DNA of 64,000 bases from assembly GCF_963675165.1 (NCBI RefSeq), contig NC_087386.1, positions 298,931 to 362,930 on the forward strand, in the 5' to 3' direction. Below, in pieces: positions 7,401 to 60,900 of this stretch. The stretch's first letter is position 1. The number at the start of each line of letters is the position of its first letter. Below the pieces are notes generated by a model. The model was not told where the DNA came from and made no database searches. It saw only the letters and a program-made list of their open reading frames with translations. The stretch is from Halichondria panicea (lineage: Eukaryota > Porifera > Demospongiae > Suberitida > Halichondriidae). The translations under genes were made by a program, and so were the position numbers.

Positions 7401-8533
7401 AGCACATGTACACGCGTTGGAATAATAATATCTGATTTCTCCATTCTGTGCTTCCCAGTTCAAATTTATACATACATGTAGGTTGTATAGAATTGTGCCT
7501 GTTATTGAGTTGTACATGTACCGTATATCTTCTAATTTATCGGACAGGAAAAAATAATTATTTTGGAAATTGTCCGGGTATAATTAGAACAGATTTTTAT
7601 AGAGCGTGCAAAGTGTCCGGAATAATTAGAACAAGCAAGCAGCTGCATGCGAGCTAGCTAAGTTTAATAGAACAGTGTGCGACTGAATAGTTGCACTAGC
7701 TATCTAAAACTAGCTCTCAAAGCTATCTAACTGCAGCACTCTAAGTCTTACTTGCCGTCTATGAAAGAAACTCAACTTTTCAAGGGTATTGTCCGGATAT
7801 TTAGAACAAATGTAATATTAAAGCACTGGAGTGTCCGTTGTATTAGAACAACGAAAATTGCCCAAAAGAGTGTCCGGGGTATTAGAAGTGTCCGATAAAT
7901 TAGAAGGTATACGGTACTATATATAATATCCCCCCTCACACGCACACATTGGCAGGTGTCCGAGTGTCCACGCTTCAGCGCATCGGTACAGACAACATGC
8001 TTCAGCGCACCAGTACAGACAGCACGCTTCAGCGCACCAGTACAGACAACATGCTTCAGCGCACCAGTACAGACAACACGCTTCAGCGCACCGGTACAGA
8101 CAACACGCTTCAGCGCACCAGTACAGACAACATGCTTCATCGCACCAGTACAGACAACACGCTTCAGCGCACCGGTACAGACAACACGCTTCAGCGCACC
8201 AGTACAGACAGCACGCTTCAGCGCACCGGTACAGACAACATGATGAAGCTAACACACTTCTTCCACTCTCAACACCACCACCCAACAACGGACCCAACCA
8301 CTGACCCACTGTCGACTATTGAGCCCCCTAAAGAAGTCACTGATTGCCCCGTGTGTGGGAGACAGATCCCTACTAGTGATAACACCGTCCTCAACAGACA
8401 CCTTGACGACTGCCTCAGCTTGACCACCATTCAGGAGACAGCAGCTGCCAGAAAGAGACTATTGAACTCACCAGCTAGCTCACCACATAAGAGGCAGTGT
8501 TGTGTGAAACCCTTAGAGGCTTTTTGGACTTGA
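4491..8533 (+). CDS. POLK: DNA polymerase kappa
   Basis: Nine exons: 4491-4610, 4776-5069, 5288-5579, 5791-6041, 6350-6522, 6574-6606, 6688-6784, 7217-7388 and 7956-8533, giving 669 residues. It is a Y-family translesion polymerase that extends primers past bulky lesions. The N-clasp RIGLNDHKAGMKGLDKHKIN matches POLK specifically. Catalytic acidic residues lie in DMDAFYAAVE (D109, D111) and LDESYLDIT (D200/E201). TASAGIAPN and the helix-hairpin-helix ICGIGKVTERLL are intact. The C-terminus has a PIP-box-like MMKLTHFF (about 573-580) and a Rad18-type UBZ finger (CPVCGRQIP...HLDDCL) for binding PCNA and ubiquitin. Only one UBZ is seen. Odd: ten 9-residue repeats precede the PIP box, and introns 4 and 7 carry splice-site minisatellites. 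Confidence 0.95.
6133..6345 (+). repeat. Pyrimidine-rich minisatellite before POLK exon 5
   Basis: Four to five imperfect units of about 45-50 bp contain ATATCCTTCACTACCCCCCC followed by a CT-rich run. The last unit runs directly into the acceptor of the exon at 6350, so the polypyrimidine tract is multiplied in tandem. Confidence 0.85.
6777..7092 (+). repeat. Minisatellite spanning the POLK exon 7 donor
   Basis: The units are 32-38 bp and read GTGAGT, then a TG run, then GAGGGGGAGGGGCTAGCT. The donor GCT|GTGAGT at 6784/6785 is the first of nine GTGAGT copies, and the last bases of the exon match the repeat end. The first unit is 36 nt, so using the next donor (6821) would add 12 codons in frame; other units shift the frame. 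Confidence 0.9.
7519..7916. mobile_element. MITE copy 1 (TIR TACCGTATATCTTCTAATTT)
   Basis: A 398-bp non-coding element in POLK intron 8 with inverted termini, starting TACCGTATATCTTC and ending GAAGGTATACGGTA. Motifs of the type GTCCGG...TTAGAAC recur inside. A second copy lies in opposite orientation at 49596-50000. A TA at each end suggests a TA target-site preference. Confidence 0.85.
7973..8242 (+). repeat. 27-bp coding minisatellite in POLK (10 copies)
   Basis: Ten uninterrupted 27-nt units lie within exon 9. Each encodes LQR-(I/T)-(G/S)-TD-(N/S)-(M/T), residues about 484-573. Differences among units are mainly single substitutions. The array lies in the linker between the little-finger domain and the PIP box/UBZ. 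Confidence 0.95.
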
Positions 8534-38752: not shown

Positions 38753-40594
38753 TTAGAAGACTCTCTCGTGCATATGTCCTCCAGCGGCCCCTTGGCCCAC
38801 CCCCCTTCCCGAGGGACCTGCCACGCCCCCTACATTACGAGGTCCGGGGTTAGAGTGCATCACAAACATGGAGCTCTTGTAACGACTTAGTTTCTGTGCC
38901 AAGTCCGTCTTCGAGGGCATCGGAAGCTCCCAAAATATATCGTGATTAAGTGCTGCGTCAGCATCTAGTCTTTTCTTGGGGTCTAGTGATAGTAGCTTGT
39001 CGATAAGATCGACTGCAAATGAGTCTTTGATATAATGCCGTAAGCGTTCGCGAATTTTCCTCTTTTGCTCTTTAGGCAGCTCCAATTTTGTGTACAGATC
39101 CAACTTGTCACAGCTTGGCCAGATGTCGGGCGTTATTGACCCACAAAGCTGACAGATGAGAGAGATTTGATGCTGTTCTGTTTCTCCCTGCATGATGGGA
39201 CGTCTGGTCCACATCTCACACATAATGCACCCAGCGCCCCACATATCAATGGGAGGACCGTAATTCCTCTCACCCAGTAAGATCTCCGGGGGTCGATACC
39301 ACAGGGTCACCACTCTGTTCGTATAGCGGGCAGCTCCTTTTAACAAGGCACGAGCAAGTCCAAAATCGGCTAGTTTTAGAATTCCGTCTTTTGTGATGAG
39401 GACGTTTGAAGATTTCATGTCTCTGTGAAGGATCTTGCTGTTGTGGATAAAGTGGAGGGCATTGAATAACTGGCTCATGATCGATTTTATCTCTGCCAAG
39501 GAGAATTTGACATCTTCACAACTGAGGAGGCCGGCTAGATCGTGGGCACAGAATTCAAACACGAGGTAGATGCTCCCTCTCTCTCTGTTGTACGGAGTCG
39601 CTGTAACGAGAGAGAGAGATATCGTATACAGCGGGTTTATATTGAGGGTATAAACTTTCGCGGAAAGGCCACTAGAAAGGTTTTCAAAGATTTAATTCTC
39701 ACAAAATAGCAGATCTTTTGGCATGCATGTGATATTAAATGTACGGTACCAGTAATCATAATTTGTGATGCCATTTCCACTGATACAAACTACCAATGGT
39801 ACTACATTACCTTTGGTCCTACAGATCTCAATAAGGGACACGATGTTCTCATGGTCGAGTAGTTGCAGTATCCGTATCTCCCTCAGTGCAGTCATGGGGA
39901 ACTGCACAGTGTGTGACAATGAATGAAATGTCACCTTATTGAAACAATAGGCTGTTATGACACTTAAGACTACCTACACAAAACAAATTGAGTGGTGCTG
40001 CATGCTTATGGGTAAAATAATATAGAAATGTCGCATAGTTAGAGTGCCGCCTTTAATTGAGATGTTACGGTACTGTGACCACGACTCACCCCTTCAGTCT
40101 CGTTCTCCATCCGTACTTTCTTAAGAGCTACCAGTGCATTCGTCTTCCTATTGCGAGCCTTAAACACCTCCCTAATAGTGAAGAAGACATTGTTACTGAT
40201 CATACAGGATTCTAGAGTACTGCCATGAACGTGAACGTGAACAGGTCGCTGTACTATTGATTCAAGCACGCCATCTTGTATCTCTATCAGAAAGCTCCTA
40301 AATGCATCCGTCCTAGTTTAATTTATGGGCAGTCAACGTTGTGTGGGTGTGTGTGTGCGTGTGCATGTGTGGGTGTGGGTGTGTGTGTGCGTGTGCATGT
40401 GTGGGTGTGTGTGTGCTCTTTGTGAGGGTGTGTATGTGTACGTGTGTGATTGGAACTCACCCAAAAGTGCCCTGGCCAACTTTGGCCAACCGCTCATACT
40501 TTCCAATCTCTGGACAGAAGGGGAAGTTGATGGCAGAGGATTTCATGGGTCCCCCAGAGCTCGCCTGACTAGAGGTAGTGCCTGAAGCACTCAT
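38753..40594 (-). CDS. CDK9: Cyclin-dependent kinase 9 (P-TEFb catalytic subunit)
   Basis: Four minus-strand exons: 40461-40594, 40090-40171, 39811-39901 and 38753-39600, giving 384 residues (human 372). With cyclin T it phosphorylates the RNA polymerase II C-terminal domain and DSIF/NELF to release paused polymerase. Gly loop GQGTFGEVF, VALKKV lysine, HRDMKSSNVLI, DFGLARAL, activation loop YTNRVVTLWYRPPE, LCGSITPDIWP and the C-terminal ERVF all match CDK9 rather than CDK12/13 or CDK10. It lies divergent from Roco gene A with 108 bp between starts. The left edge of the tandem duplication falls inside exon 4, near 39069, but this copy is intact. Confidence 0.96.
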
Positions 40595-40702: not shown

Positions 40703-43700
40703 ATGGCTGCTAGTTCCCCACAGTTGATGAAGGATGGTCTTACTTGGTTGAATAGGGTATGATATTCACATGATAGATAGATACTCAATGATCAGTGCAT
40801 TCTCCTAGTGCCTAGATGTACTTGTTGCTTGGCATCATTCATTCATCACAGTATAGTGCCTACACTCTACCCTGTCAGTGTGAGGTGTTTTATCTCATGT
40901 TGTTGTTCTCTCCACATGTACCACTCTCTCTGGATGGACAACAGCTAGGGATTAAGGTACGTTGTGTGCAATCACATTCTACCAAGCTGACATGCTTGTG
41001 CTCTGAGCACTTGTTGTTAGGAGGTAGACAGTGTAAAGAAGAGCACATACGGATAACTGAATGTGATACTATTCCTTAATTGAGACCAGTAGATCTACTC
41101 GTAGTAGTACCTGAAAGTATGCATGGTTAATCAAGTGTTTCAGTCTGCATGTTTGGCTGTCCACAATTGTTTCCCCTCCCCTGTCTCATGCATCACCAGT
41201 GTACTGTATCACTGCACTAATGTTCTCTTCCTTCCATTTCATGCATCTCCACCTCACCTTGACTGACCCTCTGAAACAACAGGGTGTAAGTTGGTGTGTG
41301 TTGTCAGAGTATTTAGTGTCTGTTGCATATTCTGTGATGTTTCTACTTCCCCATTATTACTCTTGTGTGTGTGCAGTGCCATAGTGTTATATAGGGAAAT
41401 ATTTAGTATGATCACATTCAACCTCGTAATCATTCATTTACTATCTTCCCACGTGTTTGCCCTGTGGACTCTCCCTCTCTGGATCAACAGTCTGTAAGTT
41501 GTGTTTGCACGTGCACACTCATTTTAATGGTTACTAGGAACTCGTAAATTAATATTTAGCCGAGGCCCACACAACTTATTAGGCTGTACTTATAATTATT
41601 ACTTTTGGTGGTTCATAGAATATGCATCTAAGTTGGTACATTATCGTGTTTGTCTCTTCCCATGCACACACTCATTCCTATGTTGGACCACACACTGATT
41701 TGGACTATTGTAGAAGGTGAGCTTCTTACGAGTACTCAATGTCTACACACTAAAATGGTTCAGCTCCAATGTGTACGGATGTACTGGTTACCTAGCATCA
41801 TTAGCGTGTGTCCCTTGTCCTCTAGAGCTGACCCTCTCCCTCGTATAGGGTAGACCATGGCTACGGGGACGATATCAGCCTCCCAGTTTGTGGTTACCCC
41901 AGGTGTAGGCCAGGGCACATTTTAACTGTTCAATTCGTAGTCCCATTTTACGCACAAGTTGGTGCGTATACATTAATTTTGTGTACATTGTGTTCATGTA
42001 AATTCCACAACTAATTAAGTTGTTGAAGATATTTCCCAAGAGCTTTTCTATGCACCACCATTGTGTACATTGTGTACATGTAAATTTGTGTTTATGTAAA
42101 TTCCCCAACCAATTAAGTGCCTACTGAACCTAAAACTTGTTGCCTATTTCTCCCAACTTTTTTATTTCTTAGCTTTTCTATGCCAGGTCTAGCCACTTGT
42201 TGCTATGTGTAGTCAGTCCCATACACACCAACGTTCAACTGATCTGATGTCTTGTATGTGTGTTAAGATTAAATCTCTCCCTCACATGTACCATTTGATG
42301 TGTCTCAGGTTCTCATTAAGGTATGTTGTGATTGTGTGTTTACCGTCCCTTCCACTGACCCACCCACTGACCCTTCCATTATCTGCTATTGCTAGTACCG
42401 AGTACCTGTGTGTGTACTAGCCAGTGTGTGTACTACCAGTGTTCATATCCCTCTCTCCTCACATGTACCCTCTGTGGACTGTTACTCAACAACAGGGCGT
42501 GAGTTTATTGCATGTACATATAATGGCGTACTAGGCTGACTTGTATACATGTACTACTGCATGAAGGCAGAAAGAATAACTTGCGTGACTTTATTTAGGA
42601 TTAGTATGTACTGAAAGTTTCATGCTGTACAGAAGTGTACTTGCAATAGTTGATGTATACATGTGTGAATGCATTCGTGTATTTGAACATGTTCATTTCT
42701 CTACATGTCCGTGTCCTACTGCTTGTTAATGTAACTACTGCTAATGATTACTGGAACAACAGTATGTAAGTTACAGTATACAGACATGCATGAATGCACT
42801 CACTGCTCCTACCATCATCCCCCTCTCTCTGTTTCCATGTGTGTCTAACGCTGGTGTCTCATTGGACTAAACAGAAGGTGAGCGGGACACTGCACTGACT
42901 TGTGACTGTACTTGTGTCAGTAATGTTTGAGTTGCATGAGTACATGTGTATTGGCATTCATAGTGTACTGGTTTGTGATTATATTCTTTTCTCTCTCCCT
43001 ACATTTCCATGGTTACTGAATATCTGGAACGATAGAGAGTGAGTTAAACAATGTTGGCAAACATACCGTACACCTCATGTGCATTCAGTTTGTAATAGTC
43101 TCATATCCTTACTTGACTCTAGTAGCTATACTGGTTGCTCCTATAGACAACTCATAATGTGTGACCACAAACACACAGTCTAACCCACTCTTGTCTTGTT
43201 AACCTTGTCCAGGATAAGGATGAGAAGGAGAGTAAACTGATGCATCATAAGATGGTGAGTGTTGACAGTTGCACTTACTACTCTCGTGGTAAGAGTGGTA
43301 CACGTAGTCTAGCAGAACGACAATGTGTGTACATGTACTGTCCATTGTATGATGAATGGTTGCTTTTTGTCTACCTTTGTGTATGTTTTATAAGTCCACT
43401 TTTACTGTTTGACTGTGTGAGGTTATACCGTATAGCGGGTAAATATAATATTATGATATACTCGTCAAGGTTGGTGGTTGCTGATTTTTATATTTTGATA
43501 ATTTGTACATTTGTATCAGCTGTATGTTCTATTTGGTGGAATGTTCATTCAGTCGTATATATATTCTTTACTCCCCCAGGGAAGAGTTGCCCTCCAACAG
43601 AGACTGTCTGGTGACATCACTGACCAGGACCGGAGACAACTGCAGGGAGAGCTGGAGGAGGTGGAGTGGGAGATCAAGAAGTGTGTCTCTGAGATACAAG

Positions 43701-46700
43701 ACTGTGAGGAGGATATACAATACTATGAGAATGATATTGCTGAGACACGGAGAAGAGGAAAGGAGAAGCAAAGAAAGGAAGGTGAGGGGAGCAAGGAACT
43801 TTATAGTACAGTGAGTGTTGATGCTCATAGTTGCAATCACTCGTACCTGTAGCAACTTACATGTAGTGTGTTATTAGTAGACTGTACCTACAGCTGGTCC
43901 ATTTAATGAAAGCTTTTACTATGTTCGTAATCCCGCTCTTTTTGTTGGTTTTATAAACTTTATGTTGCTAGGAAACTGACTTTTGTACACGTCTGAGCTA
44001 CCGTATATGCTTGATCAGAGGCCGCTCTCAAATAGTAGCCTCAGTGAACTTTGACTCTAGCATTTCTGCACATGGCAGCCAGGCTAGTATTAATGATTTA
44101 GCTACATGTACCTAGCTACTAGCCTAGTAGCTAGGTACAGGTAGCTAGGTACAGGTAGCAGCTTGTTAGTGCTTCACAAGACTTTCTCATGGCAGAGTTC
44201 AGGTTTATGCAAGTGAAAAGAACTTTTGAGGACAAACTAAAGGTTGTTGAATTAGCTGGAGCTAATAAACACCACTTTTGAATTGTAGCCTCCTCTTCCA
44301 GCAAAATGAAACCTTTACATTTAGTAGCCGCGGCCTCTGATCAAGCATATGCTGTATATTCCTTGCTATTCCACACATCTGTCACAGTGTACATGTATTA
44401 TAATTATGGACACTGTTTATCAGACGTTGATTAATACGTACATCAATATGTGCACATACATGTACAGTCACTGTGATTGAGTGATTGGGTTGGTAACGTT
44501 GTACTGTGTACTTAGTGACATCATCATGTTAATTCATTCATAGCACATTCCTGTAATGATCAGCCACATTCCCTGTCATTGGTGGGTCACTCACTTAGCA
44601 AGCTTTAAAGGTTTATGTACGTACAGCTGCTGTATCCATTGTTTGTAGCAGATTGATGCCGGTCCTTCCATTAAATGCTTTTCTTTTGTGTAACTTGAGT
44701 TACACTACCCAGTGGCGGATCCAGGGGGAGATCCCAGGGTGCCACGGATCCCCCCTTTCAGTCTAGCTATTGTGGCTTTACTACAGCTACCAGCTAGCTA
44801 TTTATCAGTTTTGTAGCTATTGTAATTTGATTCAATGATTGTACCTGTTGTTTTGATGCATCAACTGCCAAAGGAGTGTTCAGGTTAACCTAGGCTAGCT
44901 TGTTGACTGTTCGTGGCAGCTAGCTAGCTCTACACAAGTCTATTATGGGACTTCTCCTGGCTGAGTATGGGATTTTCCCAAGTCACGTGAGACCGGAAGT
45001 GGGCGTAACCCCAAAAATTTCGCGCTATGCACTCGTAGTTTGGAACCCCCCTTTCATTTTCCTGGATCCGCCACTGCATATGCTACCTAGTTGCCTTCCA
45101 CACTCTATTGCATGTACATGCAGAATGATTTGTGTATGTGTGTATTCTGAGTCTGCTCACCTGAATGCCATAGCGCTGCTTTTACAGCGTGGATAGCCTC
45201 CACACAAAATATATAATAATAGCCTCTAACCTCTAGTTGTTTGGCTAACTGTTATATAAGCGAAAGCTCGGCCTGGGATCGAGGCTATAGGATAGCCTCC
45301 ACACAAAATAATGACATTTAATAAAAGAATAAAAGCTAAGAAGCTATACACATTGGCTATAGAGCTAGCTAGATATAGTAGTCGGCTTTAATTGGAGGCA
45401 CTTCATTACACATGTGCACTATGACAGCCAACTGGAGCCCTACCTGAGAAGACACTACAGCTGCATGGCTGTACATATTGTTATGTCTCAGATGCGCATT
45501 GTCAACTTAAAATTAATGTAATAGCTGTCTTGTGTACTGTTTTCGTAAAAAATAGCTGTTTTGCTGAAAACACAAGCCAGAGGCAGCACTGTATCAATTG
45601 GTGTGTGTTCAATTGATGACCCTTTACCAGTAAAGTCGTGACGCTTAATGGAAGCTGTGTGCACATGTTTTCTTCCCATTGCTCATTGCCCCACCCACTG
45701 TGACATCACCATTTTTTTCTATTACATCAATAATTATTATGTTTGCATGTCATACCTTTTGTAGCTAGGCAACCGACTACATATCCATGTGTTTGAGTTA
45801 GTGTACTATAGACTATATTGCATGTGTAATTATAGTGACATATTGTTTAGAATCAGCGAAGCGGTTGTTTGATGAGGCGATGAAGCACGGACATGTCTTG
45901 GTCAACATTGTCAACATGCTCGTGTTTGGACCGGCGGGAACAGGGAAGACCAACCTCAAGCACCTGCTAACTGACAAGCCCCCTCCACTACACCGAGACA
46001 GCACTCCTTGTATGGAAAAGCCAGTACGCATTCGACCCGTGTCCAACACGAAATTCAGGTCAACTGGAAGAGGTTGGGAAGAGATGTCTCAGCCAAAGCT
46101 GCGCAAGCTACTTGCTCAAATCATCGCCAAGTTACCAAAAGAAAGTGCCGATCCATCCACAGCATCAAGGGTTGCCGAGAGCTTGAAGAAGATGACCACA
46201 ACCGAGTCAATTTCTGGTTCTAATGAGCACTTTTCTGATTCCGATGTGCCATTTTCTGATTATTCAGATAATTCAAATTCTAGTTCCGATGAGTTAGTTT
46301 CTGATTCCGATGTGCCATTTTCTGATTATTCAGATGATTCAAATTCTAGTTCCGATGAGTTAGTTTCTGATTCCAGTTCGAGCCCATCGAGGAACGATTC
46401 CGATGAATTTTCTGGCTCTACAAGAAAGTTGAAGAAAGCCGTTGATAAAGTGATAGCGAGTGTAGTGAGTGGTGTGGCAGAAGAGCTGAAGCCAGCCACA
46501 CAGGGAACTGACCAACTGTCGAGCAGTGACCAGCAAGAAGGAGAACTGTTTGATTCCAACTGGGTGTATGTTACCGACTGCGGCGGCCAGCCGCAATTTC
46601 ACGACATCAGCCCTCTCTTCATCAAGCACATTTCAGTGGCGTTGATAGTCCTGCGTTTGATTGACGAACTCTCCAGTTTCCCTTCTGACGAGTACTACAA

Positions 46701-49700
46701 GGATGGGCAGCTTGTTGGTAGTCCTCATGCATCTCACATGACCCTCAGGGAGACACTTCAGAGTCTCATTCGATCCATTGAGTCCCATACCTCACAAGAC
46801 AAGAAGCCGAAGATGATCTTTGTGGGCACATTCTTAGATCAGCTGAAGAGCTCGGATACACTTATCAAGAGGAATCAAGAGATTCTCGACATGCTGCCAC
46901 CCGATATCAAGAAGCTATTGGTGTACGAAAATCTTGGAATGAACAATCTGATTTTTGGTCTTAACACAATCAGCCGAGAAGATAATTCACTGGCCACTGC
47001 CAATAGGATTAGAATTGCTATTGAGCGTTCTATTCCGTTGAAAGTCAAAATGCCCATCTGGTGGTCCTTCTTGGATTCACTTCTCCAGAGTTTATCTGCC
47101 AGTCTCGAGCGAGGTGTATTAAGCATTGAAGAATGTCTCCAATTAGCCACTCGATTTGGTTATGTGCTCCAAGATCTTGAAGCTGCTCTGGTCTTCTTTG
47201 ACAGCGTGTGTATAGCGCACTACTATCCCTCCATTCTCCCCAACACAGTGTTTGTGGATGCCCAGATTCCTCTAGACAAGATCACTGAGCTCTCACAGCA
47301 CGCCATCTCCCTGAGGGATCCTGAAGTCAAATCAAGCACAGGAGGGACAGATGCCGAATGGAAGAGATTTAGAGACGAGGGCATAATCACTGTAAAGTTC
47401 CTACAATTCTTCGAGAAGCATTACGTTGAAGGCATCTTTTCTCCAGAAGATATGCTGTTGATCATGAAAAAGCTTCTCGTGATTGCTCCCATTCCTCTAG
47501 TGGAAGCCACTCCCCACCAAGCCGAGTTCTTCATGCCATCTCTACTCACATCGATCCCACCTGCTGAGTTAGACGAAATTCGTTCCTCCTTCACAACATC
47601 ACCCCTCGCTGTCTACTTTCGTAGTGGGTGTATTCGCTCTGGAGTCTTTTGCTGTCTAGTTGTGGACGTGATCAAGAGGGTGGGCTGGCAAGTTTTGTTG
47701 CCTTCAGGGAAACCAATCTGTTTTGCTAAAAATTGTATCCAGCTAAGAATTCCCAAGCACCCGTGCACCGTGGCTCTGATCGACTCATTCTCGTATATCG
47801 AAGTGTACATTGACGTCCCTTTTCCTCTGCGCAAAAAACTTTGTCTTTCCATTCGCAATGAAATTTTGATCAGCATTAAATCGTCCTGTGACATGTTGCA
47901 TTACAACAACGACACACCCGAGACAGCCATCTTTTGCCCTTGCAAGAAGAGCACTGGAAGCATACGCAAATTGCACCTTGCTGATCTGAGTGAACGGAAG
48001 GACTATTGGATATGCTCCCAGGAGGCACGTGTGTATGGGAAGCTCAGTGACGAACATAGAATCTGGCTGGACAATAGCGAAGGTTCAGGTGAGTATAATA
48101 ATTATTGTGTTCAGTAATATTGACATTTATGTTTCCCTATGTTAGGTGAACCATCCTCTGTTACGAGAGATGTCACTGAAAGAACGAGTGATCAGCTGCA
48201 ATACCCCGGTAATTACGTAGTAACATTTGTAGATTTATTTGATTGGAATTACGTGTACTACATAGTTACTTGATTGATTACATATTTTTTGTTTGAGCGA
48301 CTCTTGTATTATCCCCCTCAGGCCCATCGTCCCCTGTAGTGGAACCTGCGCGTAAGAAGATGAGAATGAGTGATCAACATACCAGTAAGGAAGTGCCATT
48401 AATTTGGTTGATAAGTTATTTTACTTGATCACTAATAATAATTATTATCCAGTCTATTTTATCATTCTTCTTTCCTTGTCATAATTATTTACTGTATGTA
48501 TCGGTTATATAAATAATTCTAAGGTTCTGGTGATCAACGCTTTTACGTATTCTGTACTGCAGGTGAATTGTCCTCTGTTACAGTAATGGAAGATGTGTGT
48601 AAGAAGACTGGAGTGAGGGACCAACAACTAGATCAAGAAATCCCTGAGAATGACATCACTCGATTTGCGGAGAAATTTCCTCAACTGCTGAGCGTGCACA
48701 AGGTAGGCAGTACTCTACATCTTAATAAATACTTATCATCCTGACATTTTGGCAAGGGGAGCAAACGGTGTACATGTAAGATGTTAGGTGGGGGTGAGGC
48801 AAGGGGTGTACATGTAAGATGTTAGGTGGGGTGATGGTTAGGTGGGGGTGAGGCAAGGGGTGTACATGTAAGATGTTAGGTGGGGTGATGGTTAGGTGGG
48901 GGTGAGGCAAGGGGTGTACATGTAAGATGTTAGGTGGGGGTGAGGCAAGGGGTGTACATGTAAGATGTTAGGTGGGGGTGAGGCAAGGGGTGTACATGTA
49001 AGATGTTAGGTGGGGTGATGGCTAGGTGGGGGTGAGGCAAGGGGTGTACATGTAAGATGTTAGGTGGGGGGTGATGGTTAGGTGGGGGTGAGGCAAGGGG
49101 TGTACATATAAGATGTTAGGTGGGGTGATGACATGTTTGTGGTTATGCCAATTCCGTACCCTCGCGAAAATAAGCCTATCTTGAATAAACGCCCATCCCC
49201 TCTTTTACTTCGAAGTTCTTGCACGAGGGTATTTTCACTCGACTGGACCAATATCAGACATATAACTTTCTCTGTATATGGATCAGTTTGCCCTTGAAGA
49301 TGTATATGCAGGGAACAAGTAGTCCTATATGCTGAGAAAGGAAAACACAAAGTCTAAGAAAGTTATCACACAGGCTAATTTTGCAGGTTACCTTGCCTTT
49401 GTTTTCTGAAACAAAGTACCTGATAGCTGCTCTGTAGGAGTGTGACCTACCATCCTTCGGGAAGTTCTGCTAACATCTGACATCGACAAGCAACGAATAG
49501 AGTCAGAGTCGATCCACTTCTTCATGTTCATTCTCTTGTCATGCTTTACATGCATTATAGTTTATAACATTGTTGTTGTCAATAAAATATTCATATACCG
49601 TATATCTTCTAATTTATCGGACACTTTTAATTACCCCGGACACTCTTTTGGGCAATTTTCGTTGTTCTAATACAACGGACACTCCAGTGCTTTAATATTA

Positions 49701-50937
49701 CATTTGTTCTAAATATCCGGACAATACCCTTGAAAAGTTGAGTTTCTTTCATAGACGGCAAGTAAGACAAGACTTAGAGTGCTTCAGTTAGATAGCTTTG
49801 AGTAGCTAGTTTTAGAAAGCTAGTGCAACTATTCAGTCGTACACTGTTCTATTAAACCTAGCTAGCTCGCATGCAGCTGCTTGCTTGTTCTAATTATTTC
49901 GGACACTTCGCATGCTCTATAAAAATATGTTCCAATTATACCCGGACAATTTCTAAAATAATTATTTTTTGCTGTCCAATAAATTAGAAGATATACGGTA
50001 CTATGTATTAAAATGAAAATACAATAAATTAATAAAGATTGTCATAGAGCAAAGTGTAAACCTTGATTTGAGGCCGCGGATGGGCGTATATTTGAATGAA
50101 AACTCGCCGTTCGCGATTAAACGCCCAGTCCCCTAATAAGCCTAGACTTCTTGCAGAAAAGGGTGGGCTTATTTTCGCGAGGGTACAGTAATCAAGAATT
50201 CATTAACTTGCCCTATTAAGAATGTTCACCAGAACCACTCAATTGTATTCCCATTGAGTTTCCTAGAAGGTATTTGCTAGGGGCAACCCCCACCAAATGA
50301 AACACTGTTTATTTTACAGGCTTTGACAATTAACGATCTACAACATGTCTATGTGACTCTACATGAAAGTGCCCCTTACTGGTTGAATCTGGGATTGGCT
50401 CTAGGTCTCAGTCATCCTGTTCTCAACAACATCGATACTGGCAAGCATCGTGGCGATAATCTGTCTTGCTTGCGTGAAATGCTGGTTAAGCTCCTGAGTA
50501 CACAAGATGTAACATGGAGTCTCCTGTCAGATGCTCTCAAAAAGCCCACAGTGAAACTCGTCAATTTGGCTGATAGCATCATGGGTAATTACCATTTTCA
50601 GTGTTTGTGTAGTTTGCTTTATTTGTCATTTTTAGTGCTTGATATAAACATGAAAATGTACATTAATTTTTGTGATGCCTTTTTTCTTCATGCAGTTAAT
50701 CAATCCAACCTGCTCGATGGACTCAACCTCACCCCAGCCGACCTTGATGATGTAACTGATGTCACACGTCGTTATGGCGATCAAGCTGGAGTGGCTCATG
50801 CATTGAGAGTGTGGCGAAAAGTGAATCCTTCCAGAGCTACCTTCAGGGCCTTGGTGGAAATTGCTATAGAACTGAGAAGAGGAGACACTGCTACAGACAT
50901 TTGTAGATTCATTGTAAAGGAACTGAACAAAAATTAA
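40703..50937 (+). CDS. Roco-like (ROC-COR) protein with microexon-encoded N-terminus and two death-fold domains, copy A
   Basis: Eighteen exons: 40703-40756, 40945-40956, 41283-41285, 41491-41493, 41714-41716, 42309-42320, 42496-42498, 42763-42765, 42875-42877, 43036-43038, 43213-43254, 43580-43781, 45851-48088, 48146-48208, 48322-48384, 48563-48702, 50320-50584 and 50696-50937, giving 1117 residues. After a short coiled-coil head, the ROC GTPase has a Walker A GPAGTGKT (141-148), an acidic Ser-rich insertion (about 230-300), and DCGGQ (about 357-361). The COR region includes LVFFDSVCIAHYYP and FVDAQIPLDKITEL. The C-terminus has a death domain (about 950-1037, YWLNLGLALGLSHP) and a second death-like fold (about 1038-1117). 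This resembles innate-immune or signalling scaffolds of the Roco/DAPK type. The large exon is certain; the microexons are predictions. Confidence 0.8.
40945..43254 (+). other. Microexon array of Roco gene A (12-nt and 3-nt phase-0 exons)
   Basis: Predicted exons in order: CTAGGGATTAAG, GGT, TCT, AAG, GTTCTCATTAAG, GGC, TAT, AAG and AGA, then a 42-nt exon. Each follows a consensus acceptor, often TGGAxxAACAG or a close variant, and is followed at once by GTAAGT, GTGAGT, GTGAGC, GTACGT or GTATGT. Introns are 109-592 nt. All are multiples of 3 and in phase 0, so each could be skipped without a frameshift. The order 12+3+3+3 nt occurs twice, which is 7 codons per cassette. Confidence 0.65.
43999..44356. 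mobile_element. MITE with TIR TACCGTATATGCTTGATCAG (unit A copy)
   Basis: In the large intron before the ROC-COR exon. The left end TACCGTATATGCTTGATCAG faces the right end CTGATCAAGCATATGCTGTA. The same element sits at 58629-58972 in unit B, so it predates the duplication. Confidence 0.75.
44710..45076. mobile_element. MITE with TIR CAGTGGCGGATCCAGG
   Basis: Left end CAGTGGCGGATCCAGGGGGA, right end TTTCCTGGATCCGCCACTG. This TIR style is common among hAT-like non-autonomous elements. In unit B (from about 59317) the right end is deleted. Confidence 0.75.
46237..46368 (+). repeat. 66-nt coding repeat (2 copies) in the ROC insertion
   Basis: Two adjacent copies encode the 22-residue Ser/Asp-rich unit SDSDVPFSDYS(D)xSNSSSDEL. 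The paralogue in unit B lacks both and keeps only a short Ser/Asp stretch, so this insertion varies in length between recent duplicates. Confidence 0.95.
48758..49130 (+). repeat. Minisatellite in Roco A intron 16
   Basis: About eight to ten imperfect units of GGTGTACATGTAAGATGTTA followed by GGTGGGG(GTGATGGTTAGGTGGG)GGTGAGGCAA. Unit B retains only one copy of the core (63208-63235), so this array expanded after the duplication or collapsed in B. Confidence 0.9.
49159..50183. mobile_element. 1-kb TIR element inserted in unit A only
   Basis: Inverted ends CCCTCGCGAAAATAAGCC and GGCTTATTTTCGCGAGGG, bordered by TA. The matching place in unit B (near 63262) is an empty site. No transposase ORF, so non-autonomous. 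It contains the nested MITE at 49596-50000. Confidence 0.8.
49596..50000. mobile_element. MITE copy 2 (TIR TACCGTATATCTTCTAATTT), nested
   Basis: Reverse-orientation relative of 7519-7916, with the same termini and matching interior. It lies inside the 1-kb element, giving an insertion order. Confidence 0.85.
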
Positions 50938-51253: not shown

Positions 51254-53320
51254 TCATCTCTTTCTTTTCTTCTTAGCATCAGCCTCATCGTCATCGTCCT
51301 GAGGTTTAGCCTTTGTCTTAGACTCCACTAGAGCAGTGGTTGTTTTCTTCATGAGATCTCTGCTCACAAACTCCTCATCGCTACCACTGTCCTCGTCTAC
51401 AGGGGGGGGGGGGTTAGAATAATACATACAAGTCTATACATTGCTTACCATAGAACATTTGTCGTGAGCCCATCTTTGGCAGGTCCACCTTCACATTGCC
51501 AGCCATACCGCCCTCGACAACATGGCGGAACTGTGACAACAGAAATACAGTGGATGTACTTTAGAATAAAAAACAGCAACACATTACAGTCCTCGTGGAT
51601 CTAAGACACAGTGATTTATAATTATAATAATTAAGTCACAGCAGCTCACCTCCTCGTCCTCCATCTCCTTGTGGACAGTGTCCAGGTCCCTACTAGAGAG
51701 CTCCTCCGCTAGACTCACTAACTTGCCCTCCACACTGCTCAGCTGTTCGATCACATACTCCTCACTGCCAGGGGACAGCTTGGGCTTCAGGGCATGAGAG
51801 TGAGGCTATACAGGGGTTAGGGGGTATGTGTTGGTACAGGGCATGAGAGTGGGGCTATACAGGGGTTAGGGGGTATGTGTTGGTACAGGGCATGAGAGTG
51901 AGGCTATACAGAGGTTAGGGGGTATGTGTTGGTACAGGGCATGAGAGTGGGGCTATACAGGGGTTAGGGGGTATGTGTTGGTACAGGGCATGAGAGTGAG
52001 GCTATACAGAGGTTAGGGGGTATGTGTTGGTACACAGGGCATGAGAGTGGGGCTATACAGGGGTTAGGGGGTATGTGTTGGTACAGGGCATGAGAGTGAG
52101 GCTATACAGAGGTTAGGGGGTATGTGTTGGTACAGGGCATGAGAGTGAGGCTATACAGGGGTTAGGGGGTATGTGTTGGTACAGGGCATGAGAGTGAGGC
52201 TATACAGAGGTTAGGGGGTATGTGTTGGTACAGGGCATGAGAGTGAGGCTATACAGAGGTTAGGGGGTATGTGTTGGTACACAGGGCATGAGAGTGGGGC
52301 TATACAGGGGTTAGGGGGTATGTGTTGGTACAGGGCATGAGAGTGAGGCTATACAGGGGTTAGGGGGTATGTGTTGGTACAGGGCATGAGAGTGGGGCTA
52401 TACAGGGGTTAGGGGGTATGTGTTGGTACAGGGCATGAGAGTGAGGCTATACAGGGGTTAGGGGGTATGTGTTGGTACAGGGCATGAGAGTGAGGCTATA
52501 CAGAGGTTAGGGGGTATGTGTTGGTACAGGGCATGAGAGTGAGGCTATACAGGGGTTAGGGGGTATGTGTTGGTACACAGGGCATGAGAGTGGGGCTATA
52601 CAGGGGTTAGGGGGTGTGTGTTGGTACAGGGCATGAGAGTGAGGCTATACAGGGGTTAGGGGGTGTGTGTTGGTACAGGGCATGAGAGTGAGGCTATACA
52701 GGGGTTAGGGGGTATGTGTTGGTACAGGGCATGAGAGTGGGGCTATACAGGGGTTAGGGAGTATGTGTTGGTACAGGGCATGAGAGTTGAGAGTGGGGCT
52801 ATACAGGGGTTAGGGAGTGTGTGTTGGTACAGGGCATGAGAGTGAGGCTATACAGGGGTTAGGGGGTATGTGTTGGTACAGGGCATGAGAGTGGGGCTAT
52901 ACAGGGGTTAGGGGGTATGTGTTGGTACAGGGCATGAGAGTGAGGCTATACAGGGGTTAGGGGGTATGTGTTGGTACAGGGCATGAGAGTGGGGCTATAC
53001 AGGGGTTAGGGGGTATGTGTTGGTACAGGGCATGAGAGTGAGGCTATAATAAATTGAAGTCCTATACAATTTTATATTGCACCACAATTAATCTAAAGCT
53101 TGTACTACATTTGCAGATATGTACTTGTGTAGTCGTACAATACACACACACAGTACTTTCTTACTGCTTTGATGTGCTGCATCTTCTCTGTGAGATGCTC
53201 CACTCCGTTGTTGACCTGTCCCAAAAGTTTATTGGCACTCTTGGTTTTACTCTCACTCTCAGCACACTTCCTCTTGGCATCGTCAAGGTGACCTTAGAAC
53301 TCCTCCAGCATACGCTGACC

Positions 53321-54702: not shown

Positions 54703-54844
54703 GAACTCACCCAAAAGTTCCCTGGCCAACTTTGGCCAACCGCTCATACTTTCCAATCTCTGGACAGAAGGGGAAGTTGATGGCAGAGGATTTCATGGGT
54801 CCCCCAGAGCTCGCCTGACTAGAGGTAGTGCCTGAAGCACTCAT
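53669..54844 (-). pseudogene. CDK9: Truncated CDK9 copy, fused to ODAD3 fragment
   Basis: Copies of CDK9 exon 1 (54711-54844, intact), exon 2 (about 54408-54490), exon 3 (54118-54208 region, intact) and a shrunken exon 4. Exon 4 has internal deletions: sequence after LAEIKSI jumps to near the WPSCDKLDLYTKLELP segment in another frame, losing the catalytic HRD and DFG. The exon 2 acceptor changed from TTAG|G to TTAAG|, which shifts the frame by one. Beyond 53669 reading would enter ODAD3 in a wrong frame and stop. No active kinase can be made; a short transcript from the retained promoter is possible. Confidence 0.88.
54629..54700. repeat. (TG)n microsatellite in the CDK9 pseudogene intron 1
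   Basis: Two TG runs separated by CCCTTTGTGAGGG. It is more uniform than the GTGTGCGTGTGCATG-type sequence at the same place in unit A (40345-40445). Confidence 0.9.
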
Positions 54845-54973: not shown

Positions 54974-57900
54974 ATGGCTGAATCTACAACACTGAATGCT
55001 GCTAGTTCCCCACAGTTGATGGAGGATGATTTCACTACTGGGGAATGGGTATGATATTCACATGATAGATAGATACTCAATGATCAGTGCATTCTCCTAG
55101 TGCCTAGATGTACTTGTTGACCACCCATAAACACACTTGGCATCATTCATTCATCACAGTATAGTGCCTACACTCTACCCTGTCAGTGTGAGGTGTTTTA
55201 TCTCATGTTGTTGTTCTCTCCACATGTACCACTCTCTCTGGATGGACAACAGTGGGAGATTAAGGTACGTTGTGTGCAATCACATTCTACCAAGCTGACA
55301 TGCTTGTGCTCTGAGCACTTGTTGTTAGGAGGTAGACAGTGTAAAGAAGAGCACATACGGATAACTGAATGTGATACTATTCCTTAATTGAGACAAGTAG
55401 ATCTACTCGTAGTAGTACCTGAAAGTATGCATGGTTAATCAAGTGTTTCAGTCTGCATGTTTGGCTGTCCACAATTGTTTCCCCTCCCCCTGTGTTCATG
55501 CATCACCAGTGTACTGTATCACTGCACTAATGTTCTCTTCCTTCCATTTCATGCATCTCCACCTCACCTTTGACTGACCCTCTGAAACAACAGACTGTAA
55601 GTTGGTGTGTGTTGTCAGAGTATTTAGTGTCTGTTGCATATTCTGTGATGTTTCTACTTCCCCATTATTACTCTTGTGTGTGTGCAGTGCCATAGTGTTA
55701 TATAGGGAAATATTTAGTATGATCACATTCAACCTCGTAATCATTCATTTACTATCTTCCCACTGTTTGCCCTGTGGACTCTCCCTCTCTGGATCAACAG
55801 TGGGTTAGTTGTGTTTGCACGTGCACACTTATTTTAATGGTTACTAGGAACTCGTAAATTAATATTTAGCCGAGGCCCACACAACTTATTAGGCTGTACT
55901 TATATTACTTTTGGTGGTTCATAGAATATGCATCTAAGTTGGTACATTATCGTGTTTGTCTCTTCCCATGCACACACTCATTCCTATGTTGGACCACACA
56001 CTGATTTGGACTACTGTAGGAGGTGAGCTTCTTACGAGTACTCAATGTCCACACACTAAAATGGTTCAGCTGCAATGTGTACGGATGTACTGGTTACCTA
56101 GCATCATTAGCGTGTGTCCCTTGTCCTCTAGAGCTGACCCTCTCCCTCGTATAGGGTAGACCATGGCTACGAGGACGATATCAGCCTCCCAGTTTGTGGT
56201 TACCCCAGGTGTAGGCCAGGGCACATTTTAACTGTTCAATTCGTAGTCCCATTTTACGCACAAGTTGGTGTGTATCATTAATTTTGTGTACATTGTGTTC
56301 ATGTAAATTCCACAACTAATTAAGTTGTTGAAGATTTTTCCCAAGAGCTTTTCTATGCACCACCATTGTGTACATTGTGTACATGTAAATTTGTGTTTAT
56401 GTAAATTCCCCAACCAATTAAGTGCCTACTGAACCTAAAACTTGTTGTTGCCTATTTCTCCCAACTTTTTTATTTCTTAGCTTTTCTATGCCAGGTCTAG
56501 CCACTTGTTGCTATGTGTAGTCAGTCCCATACACACCAGCGTTCAACTGATCTGATGTCTTGTATGTGTGTTAAGATTAAATCTCTCCCTCACATGTACC
56601 ATTTGATGTGTATCAGAAGGCCATTGAGGTATGTTGTGATTGTGTGTGTGTCTCGTGGAGTGCGTGTGTTGTATTGTACAACAAACAAAATCATATGTAT
56701 TAAAGTTGTACATGTAAGATGCTTGTTGTACCGTTTACCGTCCCTTCCACTGACCCACCCACTGACCCTTCCATTATCTGCTATTGCTAGTACCGAGTAC
56801 CTGTGTGTGTACTAGCCAGTGTGTGTACTACCAGTGTTCATATCACTCTCTCCTCACATGTACCCTCTGTGGACTGTTACTCAACAACAGACTGTGAGTT
56901 TATTGCATGTACATATAATGGCGTACTAGGCTGACTTGTATACATGTACTACTGCATGAAGGCAGAAAGAATAACTTGCGTGACTTTATTTAGGATTAGT
57001 ACGTACTGAAAGTTTCATGCTGTACAGACGTGTACTTGAAATAATTGATGTATACATGTGTGAATGCATTCATATACTATATAGCGCGAAATTTTTGAGG
57101 CACTTATATTTCGTGAAATGGCCTCTAAACGCATTTCGTTGCACAATGTTCGCGGAATATCTGCTTACCGGAAGCCACGCCTTTAAATCTTTGCACGTTA
57201 TAGCAGATAATTCTAATTAAAGAACAATTTTCGTGGACTTAGTACGTACTGAAAGTTTCATGCTGTACAGACGTGTACTTGCAATAATTGATGTATACAT
57301 GTGTGAATGCATTCGTGTATTTGAACATGTTCATTTCTCTACATGTCCGTGTCCTACTGCTTGTTAATGTGACTACTGCTAATGATTACTGGAACAACAG
57401 AGTGTAAGTTACAGTATGCAGACATGTATGAATGCACTCACTGCTCCTACCATCATCCCCCTCTCTCTGTTTCCATGTGTGTCTTACGCTGGTGTCTCAT
57501 TGGACTAAACAGAAGGTGAGCGGGACACTGCACTGACTTGTGACTGTACTTGTGTCAGTAATGTTTGAGTTGCATGAGTACATGTGTATTGGCATTCATA
57601 GTGTACAGGTTTGTGATTATATTCTTTTCTCTCTCCCTACATTTCCATGGTTACTGAATATCTGGAACAATAGAAAGTGAGTCAAACAATGTTGGCAAAC
57701 ATACCGTACACCTCATGTGCATTCAGTTTGTAATAGTCTTATATCCTTACCTGACCCTCGTAGCTACACCTATAGACAACTCATAATGTGTGACCACAAA
57801 CACACAGTCTAACTCACTCTTGTCTTTGTTCACCTTGTCCAGTATAAGGCTGGGCATGAGAGTGAACTGAAGCGTCATGAGACGGTGAGTGTTGACAGTT

Positions 57901-60900
57901 GCACTTACTACTCTCGTGGTAAGAGTGGTACACGCAGTCTAGCAGAACGACAATGTGTGTACATGTACTGTCCATTGTATGATGAATGGTTGCTTTTTGT
58001 CTACCTTTGTGTATGTTTTATAAGCCCACTTTTACTGTTTGACTGTGTGAGGTTATACCGTATAGCGGGTAAATATAATATTATGATATACTCGTCAAGG
58101 TTGGTGGTTGCTGATTTTTATATTTTGATAATTTGTACATTTGTATCAGCTGTATGTTCTATTTGGTGGAATGTTCATTCAGTCGTATATATATTCTTTA
58201 CTCCCCCAGAGAAGAGCTGCCCTCCAACAGAGACTGTCTGGTGACATCACTGACCAGGACCGGAGACAACTGCAGGGAGAGCTGAAGGAGATGGAGGGGG
58301 AGATCAAGAAGTGTGTCTCAAAGATACAAGTGTGTGAGGGGAGGATACAATACTATGAGAATGAGATTGCTAAGACACGACTAAGACCAGAGGAGAGGCA
58401 GAGAAAGGAAGGTGAGGGGAGCAAGGAACTTTATAGTACAGTGAGTGTTGATGCTCATAGTTGCAATCACTCGTACCTGTAGCAACTTACATGTAGTGTG
58501 TTATTAGTAGACTGTACATACAGCTGGTCCATTTAATGAAAGCTTTTACTATGTTCGTAATCCCGCTCTTTTTGTTGGTTTTATAAACTTTATGTTGCTA
58601 GGAAACTGACTTTTGTACACGTCTGAGCTACCGTATATGCTTGATCAGAGGTCGCTCTCAAATAGTAGCCTCAGTGAACTTTGACTCTAGCATTTCTGCA
58701 CGTGGCAGCCAGGCTAGTATTAATGATTTAGCTACATGTACCTAGCTACTAGCCTAGTAGCTAGGTACAGGTAGCAGCTTGTTAGTGCTTCACCGTGGCA
58801 AAGACTTTCTCATGGCAGAGTTCAGGTTTATGCAGGTGAAAAGAACTTTTGAGGACAAACTAAAGGTTGTTGAATTAGCTGGAGCTAATAAACGCCGCTT
58901 TTGAATTGTAGCCTCCTCTTCCAGAAAATGAAACATTTAGTAGCCGCGGCCTCTGATCAAGCATATACGGTATATTCCTTGCTATTCCACACATCTGTCA
59001 CAGTGTACATGTATTATAATTATGGACACTGTTTATCAGACGTTGATTAATACGTACATCAATATGTGCACATACATGTACAGTCATTGTGATTGAGTGA
59101 TTGGGTTGGTAACGTTGTACTGTGTACTTAGTGACATCATCATGTTAATTCATTCATAGCACATTCCTGTAATGATCAGCCACATTCCCTGTCATTGGTG
59201 GGTCACTCACTTAGCAAGCTTTATGTACGTACAGCTGCTGTATCCATTGTTTGTAGCAGATCGATGCCGGTCCTTCCATTAATTAACCTTTTGTGTAACT
59301 TGAGTTACACTACACAGTGGCGGATCTAGGGGGAGATCCCAGGGTGCCACGGATCCCCCCTTTCAGTATAGCTATTGTGACTTTACTACAGCTACCAGCG
59401 AGCTATTTATCAGTTTTGTAGCTATTGTAATTTGATTCAATCATTGTACCTGTTGTTCTGATGCATCAACTGCCAAAGGAGTGTTCAGGTTAGCTAGGCT
59501 AGCTAGTTGACTGTTCGTGGCAGCTAGCTAGCTCTACACAAGGGACTTCTCCTGGCTGAGTATTGGATTTTCCCTAGTCACATGAGACCGGAAGTGGGCA
59601 TAACCCCAACAATTTTGCACTGTGCGCTCGTAGTTTGGAACCCCCCTTTTATGTAAGAGCTACCTAGTTGCCTTCCACACTCAAATGTACTCTATTGCGT
59701 GTACATGCAGAATGATTTGTGTATGTGTGTATTCTGAGTCTGCTCACCTGAATGCCATAGCGCTGCTCTTACAGCGTGGATAGCCTCCACAAATAATGGC
59801 ATAAAAGCAAGCAAAAGCTAAGACACTTACTATACACATTGGCTATAGAGCTAGCTAGATGTAGTAGTCGGCTTTAATTCGAGGCACTTCATTACACATG
59901 CGCACTATGACAGCCAACTGGAGCCCTACCTGAGAAGACACTACATGGCTGTACATATTATTATGTCTCGGGTGCACATTGTCAGCTTAAAATTAATGGA
60001 ATAGCTGCAACTGTTTTCGTAAAAACAGCCGCTTTGCTGAAAACACAAGCAGCACCGGTGTGTGTTCGTTCAATTGGTGTTCGTTCAATTGAAGGCCCTT
60101 TACCAGTAAAGTCGTGACGTATGATTATAATGTTGGTAAAGGAAGATTTGTGCATACATTTCTCATGTTTTCTACTCATCACCATTCTTTTATTACATCA
60201 ATCAAATGTTTACATGTCTTTTGTAGCTAGGCAACCAACTACATATGTGTTATGTTTGAGTTAGTGTATGCATGTGTAATTATAGTGACATATTGTTTAG
60301 AATCGAAGCGATTGTTTGATGAGGCGATGAAGCACGGACACGTCTTGGTCAACATTGTCAACATGCTCGTGTTTGGACCGGCGGGAACAGGGAAGACCAA
60401 CCTCAAGCACCTGCTAACTGACAAGCCCCCTCCACTACAGCGACACAGCACTCCTTGTATGGAAAAGCCAGTACGCATTCGATCCGTGTCCAACACGAAA
60501 TTCAAAACAACTGGAAGAGGCTGGGAAGAGATGTCTCAGCCAAAGCTGCGCAAGCTACTTGCTCAAATTATCGCCAAGTTACCAAAAGAAAGCACTGATC
60601 CATCCACCGTATCAAGGGTTGCCAAGAGCTTGAAGAAGATGACCACAACCAAGCTATTTTCTGACCACTTTTCTGATTCCATTTCGAGCCCATCGAGGAA
60701 CGATTCCGATGAACTTTCTGGCTCTACAAGAAAGTTGAAGAAAGCCGTTGATAAAGTGATAGCGAGTGTAGTGAGTGGTGTGGCAGAAGAGCTGAAGCCA
60801 GCCACACAGGGAACTGACCAACTGTCGAGCAGTGACCAGCAAGAAGGAGAACTGTTTGATTCCAACTGGGTGTACGTTACCGACTGTGGCGGCCAGCCGC

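Follow-up and report, generated by a model that had tools for sequence, protein, structure and literature searches.

The 3-bp mini-exons found in the NACHT-ANK (nank) genes of the truffle Tuber melanosporum are reportedly the subject of an original account by Iotti et al. 2012. In the excerpts cited, exons of 3 bp or of codon size are said to number in the tens or dozens in this fungal family (PMC4986451, PMC3689799, PMC10197012, PMC9815663). According to the same excerpts, it is an expanded family of NTPase receptors with NACHT and ankyrin repeats, in which a C-terminal recognition domain is assembled from many codon-sized exons, diversification is reported to take place via alternative splicing, and a non-self role has been proposed. 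Brown algal ROCO proteins (LRR-ROC-COR), as excerpted, are encoded with one LRR per 72-bp exon and have positively selected sites and splicing variants; alternative splicing and shuffling have been proposed for them (PMC11378527). Schistosome micro-exon genes (MEGs) are described in part of one study as having runs of small symmetrical exons that make up most of the coding region, with raised dN/dS, proposed production of variants, and products predicted to be secreted or membrane-anchored parasite proteins (PMC4350168). Aphid bicycle genes are a fast-evolving family with many small exons encoding putative gall effectors; their internal exons are almost all of phase 2, and the excerpted text mentions no codon-sized arrays (PMC9168663). 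For the sponge Halichondria panicea, the accessible text of an immune-gene study reports that receptor expression is individual-specific and contains no words beginning with "splic".

Here, we describe a gene family of H. panicea on the basis of a 64,000-nucleotide stretch of its genome (NC_087386.1, positions 298,931 to 362,930; hereafter the window) and of related loci elsewhere in the assembly. The initial annotation of the window held that no run of one-codon exons within one gene had been described, a claim refuted by the truffle mini-exons. The sponge genes resemble the truffle genes in that a recognition region would be built from many codon-sized exons in an expanded NTPase receptor family: the receptor-like family is expanded, and 19 of the 22 genes analyzed have a full array with seven predicted 3-nt exons each. 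They differ in belonging to an animal, in being ROCO-like and death-fold-like, in placing the exons in an N-terminal helix, and perhaps in being hypervariable between paralogs at the one-codon exons. With the brown algal genes they would share expanded ROCO-type GTPases and diversifying recognition residues in repeated, phase-matched small exons, but the algal exons encode whole LRRs, whereas the sponge exons of 3 or 12 nt encode one to four helix residues. The likeness to schistosome MEGs lies in raised dN/dS, in proposed variant production and in the runs of small symmetrical exons, which in the sponge gene amount to 45 nt of ~3.3 kb of coding sequence instead of most of it, and the likeness to bicycle genes lies in fast evolution and many small exons. 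In a literature search mostly outside subscription papers, we found no description of this sponge array and no animal case in which microexon codons are the hypervariable residues. Arrays of codon-sized exons are already known, and the animal setting together with hypervariability at predicted one-codon exons would make the present family a new variant.

Results

Two gene copies with nine predicted microexons each

The first gene copy contains, at window positions 40945-43038, an array of nine units in which 3 or 12 nt are enclosed between an AG and a GT (seven units of 3 nt and two of 12 nt), separated by introns of 109-592 nt. All nine units recur in the second copy (55253-57676), and in both copies they are in phase 0 (Table 1). 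The nine phase-0 microexons that the initial annotation had placed in two gene copies are thus all present; the span of 40945..43254 that it assigned to them holds as far as 43038, but the remainder includes an ordinary 42-nt exon (e42). The donors GTAAGT and GTGAGT, which had been named as the rule, do occur, but so do GTGAGC, GTACGT, GTATGT and, at m2 of copy 2, GTTAGT.

Table 1. Predicted exons of the two gene copies, with positions in the window.
Feature	Position	Strand	Remarks
Exon 1, copy 1	40703..40756	+	18 codons, ATG start
m12a (12 nt)	40945..40956	+	two hypervariable codons, then I and K/E
m1 (3 nt)	41283..41285	+	hypervariable
m2 (3 nt)	41491..41493	+	hypervariable
m3 (3 nt)	41714..41716	+	E/K
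m12b (12 nt)	42309..42320	+	two hypervariable codons, then I and E/K
m4 (3 nt)	42496..42498	+	hypervariable; matching donor used in the NCBI model of paralog L024
m5 (3 nt)	42763..42765	+	hypervariable
m6 (3 nt)	42875..42877	+	K in 19/19 genes
m7 (3 nt)	43036..43038	+	mostly R/K/E
e42 (42 nt)	43213..43254	+	two further heptads
Coil exon	43580..43781	+	67 codons + 1 nt; second helix; variability highest at codons 41-52
Large exon	45851..48088	+	P-loop GPAGTGKT, DCGGQ, COR-like region
Small downstream exon	48146..48208	+	splice pattern
Candidate small exon	near 48322-48386		read by eye; splice pattern not matched; kept out of the model
Downstream exon	48563..48702	+	splice pattern
Death-fold-like exon 1	50320..50584	+	label from reading the sequence; no Pfam death match
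Death-fold-like exon 2 and stop	50696..50937	+	Death E 0.066, below cut-off
Exon 1, copy 2	54974..55048	+	
Microexons, copy 2 (first five)	55253-55264, 55594-55596, 55801-55803, 56020-56022, 56617-56628	+	
Microexons, copy 2 (last four)	56891-56893, 57401-57403, 57513-57515, 57674-57676	+	
e42, copy 2	57843-57884	+	
Coil exon, copy 2	58210-58411	+	

The pattern ACAGNNNGTRAGT occurs 7 times in the window against an expectation of 0.69, a count reached in none of 100 shuffles, and all 7 matches are predicted microexons within the two arrays. The looser pattern AGNNNGTRAGT has 16 matches against 5.7 expected, comprising 9 microexons, the 2 ends of 42-nt exons, and 5 matches elsewhere. Genome-wide, TGGATCAACAG-NNN-GTNAGT was found at 46 places and its reversed pattern at none, while GGANCAACAG-NNN-GTNAGT was found at 85 places compared to 1 for the reversed pattern; 81 of these 85 fall on the family-bearing contigs C10 and C13. 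No located site has lost its AG or GT save for one donor in the rearranged gene L017, in a sample that favors intact sites since they were located via their flanks. Most of the 3-nt exons follow the acceptor TGGA.CAACAG or a close variant of it (acceptors within window 40932-43035), with no pyrimidine run beside the AG. This acceptor, which is absent from e42 and the coil exon, is a possible microexon splicing signal.

Exon 1 was recognized by its pattern in 20 of the 21 genes checked and is out of frame in one, L018, where it is broken. The model of copy 2 stops at the coil exon, the downstream-exon patterns being unmatched in that copy. Between the two gene copies lies a large minisatellite (51788-53048), with a unit of ~49 bp by reading. 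Two inverted copies of ~400 bp, 95% identical (7513-7916 and 49596-50007), perhaps represent a mobile element. The 5' exon of a neighboring gene is found on the minus strand at 40460-40594 and 54710-54844, and also at G000:C10:665839-665973; in copy 1, it lies head-to-head with the receptor gene, ~110 bp from the start codon. This 45-residue exon, which putatively belongs to a CDK9-like kinase, adjoins a family member at each of the three places where it was found.

An expanded family on two contigs

Genome-wide, 43 sequences match the coil exon, of which 26 are on C10 (at about 0.34-0.75, 2.24-2.52 and 5.26 Mb) and 17 on C13 (at about 4.97-6.40 Mb). The relatives returned by a protein search are uncharacterized H. 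panicea proteins. Exact patterns of six microexons mark 50 loci. Four or more of the six patterns were matched at 39 loci and a single one at 6; the full set was matched at 21 loci, and these carry 21 different codon combinations. Twenty loci were fetched, those beyond them being known as pattern matches, and together with the two genes of the window they give 22 genes, 19 of which have all ten exons from m12a to e42. The statistics on 19 genes given below exclude the other three, L017, L024 and L026. Of these, L017 is without m12b, m4 and a proper m3, L024 is without m5-m7, and L026 is without eight of the nine microexons, m1 remaining; L038 is without m1-m3. The partial arrays of these four genes are possibly in-frame variants. 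On C17, L039 consists of an m2-like fragment of ~74 nt, with no array within the 4 kb read. Matches on C2, C8, C12 and C14 fall outside the fetched set, and the C2 match was excluded from the codon counts.

Codon content, helical register and conservation of the array

Among the variable microexon codons collected genome-wide (n = 304, from exact-flank pattern matches, in which genes with changed flanks are missing), there are no stops against 10.7 expected, 1 proline against 10.3, and 33 tryptophans against 7.5 in column shuffles. The shuffles overstate the significance of these contrasts because the genes are related and shared descent is ignored, which inflates the tryptophan excess above all. 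A helix that is translated would need to be free of stops and to avoid proline, as is seen here.

When joined, the nine microexons would encode 15 consecutive residues, equal to two heptads and one residue. The heptad pattern XX-I-K/E-X-X-E/K appears twice, with positions 1, 2, 5 and 6 hypervariable between paralogs and positions 3, 4 and 7 (I, K/E and E/K) varying little, and it runs on more weakly through e42. Over the 29 spliced codons from m12a to e42, amino-acid variability has its peak at a period of 3.55 residues, and the power at 3.5 residues was matched by 1 of 20,000 permutations (3 of 20,000 when limited to the 15 microexon codons and 44 of 20,000 when limited to e42). Omission of any one of the nine microexons cuts the helical power, among the 3-nt exons most strongly when m3 or m6 is left out. 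Part of the fall comes from having fewer codons; per codon, it is clear for all seven 3-nt exons and slight for the two 12-nt exons, m12a and m12b, on which the test is silent because their fall is about that from four fewer codons. Within the coil exon, variability is highest at codons 41, 44, 45, 48, 49 and 52, and a fold-back at SGDITDQD would set these codons beside the microexon residues in a hairpin. We also considered an internal duplication of the two heptad units, which is unproven, the similarities being short (at most 33 nt) and the longest lying inside one intron.

In the distant paralog L037, intron interiors differ from those of copy 1 by 32% (416 of 1319 aligned bases in eight introns, excluding the m12a-m1 intron), yet there is a place for nine microexons and for e42, with order, length and phase unchanged from copy 1. 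The bases beside the splice sites show 13% mismatch (30 of 230), a figure biased low because the sites were chosen by best flank match within the colinear order; m12a, m4 and m5 match poorly (6-7 of 23 bases mismatched) and were placed by order.

The microexon peptide is present in none of the 30 NCBI-named proteins among the 34 examined (P0002-P0035). Five of the 30 (P0003, P0006, P0008, P0009 and P0015) include sequence upstream of LQQRL, a motif of the coil exon, and the others begin within that exon, within the GTPase exon or with unrelated N termini; overall, the starting points are e42, the coil exon or the sequence just ahead of it, the GTPase exon, and other N termini. The model of P0003, which corresponds to gene L024, begins in the intron preceding m4 and reads across the m4 codon, after which the m4 donor is joined in frame to e42. 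This modeled junction agrees with the predicted donor and acceptor. The N terminus of P0026 differs from those of the other family members, presumably resembling dynein heavy chain, and this model is perhaps an annotation fusion.

The proposal of the initial annotation that an N-terminal peptide is built almost codon by codon is supported by the avoidance of stops and proline, by the helical register, and by the array kept in the distant paralog. Judged from the genomic sequence, the nine microexons are almost certainly coding.

Hypervariable codons between similar introns

Across 19 genes, the nine array introns have median pairwise divergences of 1.0-6.5%, and in six microexons, eight variable codons show differences at positions 1-2 in 59-76% of comparisons. 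The variable block fills the gap from AG to GT at m1, m2, m4 and m5 and spans the first two codons of m12a and m12b, and gene pairs with more than 300 identical flanking bases may differ at all three bases of a codon. In the variable microexons, mean pN is 0.471 and pS 0.241, with pN exceeding pS in 167 of 171 pairs, compared to 0.067 and 0.138 in the large GTPase exon (19 genes), where pN exceeds pS in 0 of 171 pairs. The exon e42 and the coil exon (21 genes) are intermediate, with pN above pS in 135 of 171 and 178 of 210 pairs, respectively. The higher pS of the microexons relative to the GTPase exon counts against the explanation that we favor below, as do the partial arrays of L017, L024, L026 and L038, the broken exon 1 of L018, and the lack of the microexon peptide in the 30 NCBI-named proteins.

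Special conservation of the array introns was considered and rejected: a first alignment had given far higher divergence in the neighboring sequence, but the aligned pieces differ by 2-4% throughout, and no special intron constraint is claimed for the main clade. The coil exon, which is not split, likewise contains hypervariable codons, and microexons are therefore not needed for hypervariability. As read from the genes themselves, the diversity sits between ~40 paralogs, exactly at the predicted microexon codons, and would not require alternative splicing.

The remainder of the protein

The motifs GPAGTGKT and DCGGQ are visible in the large exon, and we take them to be a P-loop and a Roc GTPase switch motif. 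The Pfam Roc profile gives E 0.17 for the window protein, below the cut-off, and matches 3 of 32 relatives at E up to 0.01. A profile search against the PDB returned weak hits, mostly to Rab-type GTPases, with LRRK2 at E 0.79. COR-A was found in 2 of 32 relatives (best E 5e-07) and not in P0003, and the distant hits P0084 and P0085 carry a precomputed COR domain (PF16095). The Death profile gives E 0.066 for the last exon of the window gene, below the cut-off, and matches 2 of 32 relatives (best E 0.00015). Neither the window protein nor any of the 32 relatives aligned with it has a listed NACHT or NB-ARC match; P0085, a distant hit outside the alignment (E 9e-9, 23% identity), carries PF05729, which we take to be NACHT, together with LRR domains. 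A ROCO-like protein with two C-terminal death-fold-like domains is plausible, and so is the Roco/death-domain label given earlier, although profile searches support it weakly.

Discussion

The genes probably encode a diversifying recognition helix, with a variable face derived largely from one-codon exons, as part of a ROCO-like GTPase with two death-fold-like domains. The microexons would be joined one by one in the 5' to 3' direction, every one of them using a strong donor of its own and perhaps aided by TGGA.CAACAG, the acceptor motif that most of them share. The stretches encoded by the microexons and by the coil exon would then form a helical hairpin, the variable face of which would bind a ligand, and signaling would proceed via the ROCO-like GTPase and the two C-terminal death-fold-like domains. 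The diversity would be mainly germline, with strong diversifying selection acting on the codons and recombination between paralogs keeping the introns alike. The family may be one of expanded and diversifying intracellular recognition receptors, serving immunity or self/non-self recognition. A recognition role appears likely, and an immune function is suggested by the behavior of the family together with the weakly supported domains.

The starts of the 30 NCBI-named proteins would be accounted for if the array were an unspliced relic and the proteins began at e42 or later. We consider this very unlikely, as the lack of stops, the avoidance of proline, the helical register, and the order in L037 are hard to explain unless the microexons are translated, and annotation and standard aligners often miss very small microexons according to the excerpts cited (PMC8831610, PMC7821500). 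It is less improbable, but still rather unlikely, that alternative splicing is the main purpose of the array, the optional skipping of microexons yielding many in-frame isoforms per gene, as the initial annotation had suggested. Because the microexons are in phase 0 and multiples of 3 in length, skipping would stay in frame; several genes have lost microexons naturally, and skipping isoforms have precedents in the truffle NACHT-ANK genes and schistosome MEGs. Nevertheless, the loss of a 3-nt microexon lowers the helical register in all seven cases (the 12-nt exons being uninformative), and near-invariant codons, such as m6, also form separate exons.

Another possibility, which we hold to be somewhat doubtful, is that recombination takes place along the introns, with gene conversion or crossover reassorting single codons among paralogs. 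Codons at different sites are unassociated in 27 of 28 site pairs, the sole associated pair being m12a.1 with m1 (20 observed, 7.5 expected), and neighboring introns have discordant pairwise distances (r -0.21 to 0.66 in Mantel tests on 13 genes). Furthermore, the m2 codon TGG travels with the donor GTTAGT in 5 of 5 places, on two contigs and in more than one flanking haplotype, and at m1, when the 7 gene pairs whose identical flanks are longest are compared, 5 share the codon, results that favor some co-inheritance. However, neighboring codons of m12a, and likewise those of m12b, are unassociated as well, as are 14 of 15 codon pairs in the coil exon, and the median identical flanks of codon-sharing and codon-differing pairs are 98.5 and 101 at m1, 54 and 51 at m2, 56.5 and 72 at m4, and 100 and 92 at m5. 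Recombination as the sole cause of codon diversity is not supported, since same-exon neighbors are unassociated and the flank medians are not different, and because the unsplit coil exon is also hypervariable, the introns are not singled out as shuffling devices. The sequence data fit recombination between paralogs combined with very fast codon turnover under selection. A codon-targeted mutator acting in the germline or soma could explain why L021 and L023 differ at all three bases of m5 despite up to 435 identical flanking bases, but it is highly improbable. The third position is nearly fixed (T in 42 of 43 at m1 and in 29 of 29 exact-pattern hits at m12b.1, which ends in G in copy 2 and L029, both outside the exact pattern), and 15 of 20 G-ending one-codon exons encode Trp or Met; the fixed third positions and the Trp and Met at G-ending codons point to selection on amino acids. 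Finally, intron recombination and in-frame skipping might combine in a codon-per-exon combinatorial repertoire, independent of that of the truffle, in which ~40 clustered genes offer near-saturating choices at eight helix-surface positions; this seems to us a tentative and rather improbable proposal.

If the reading as a diversifying recognition helix is true, H. panicea would possess an animal family whose most variable residues sit in one-codon exons, and codon-sized arrays would have arisen in two distant receptor families, the fungal NACHT-ANK and the sponge ROCO-like genes. The family would provide a test of why such arrays evolve, be it through splicing diversity, recombination or drift. 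The residues that vary most in a receptor family may escape standard annotation, and the genes described here would be candidate immune or self-recognition genes of the sponge that could be typed between individuals.
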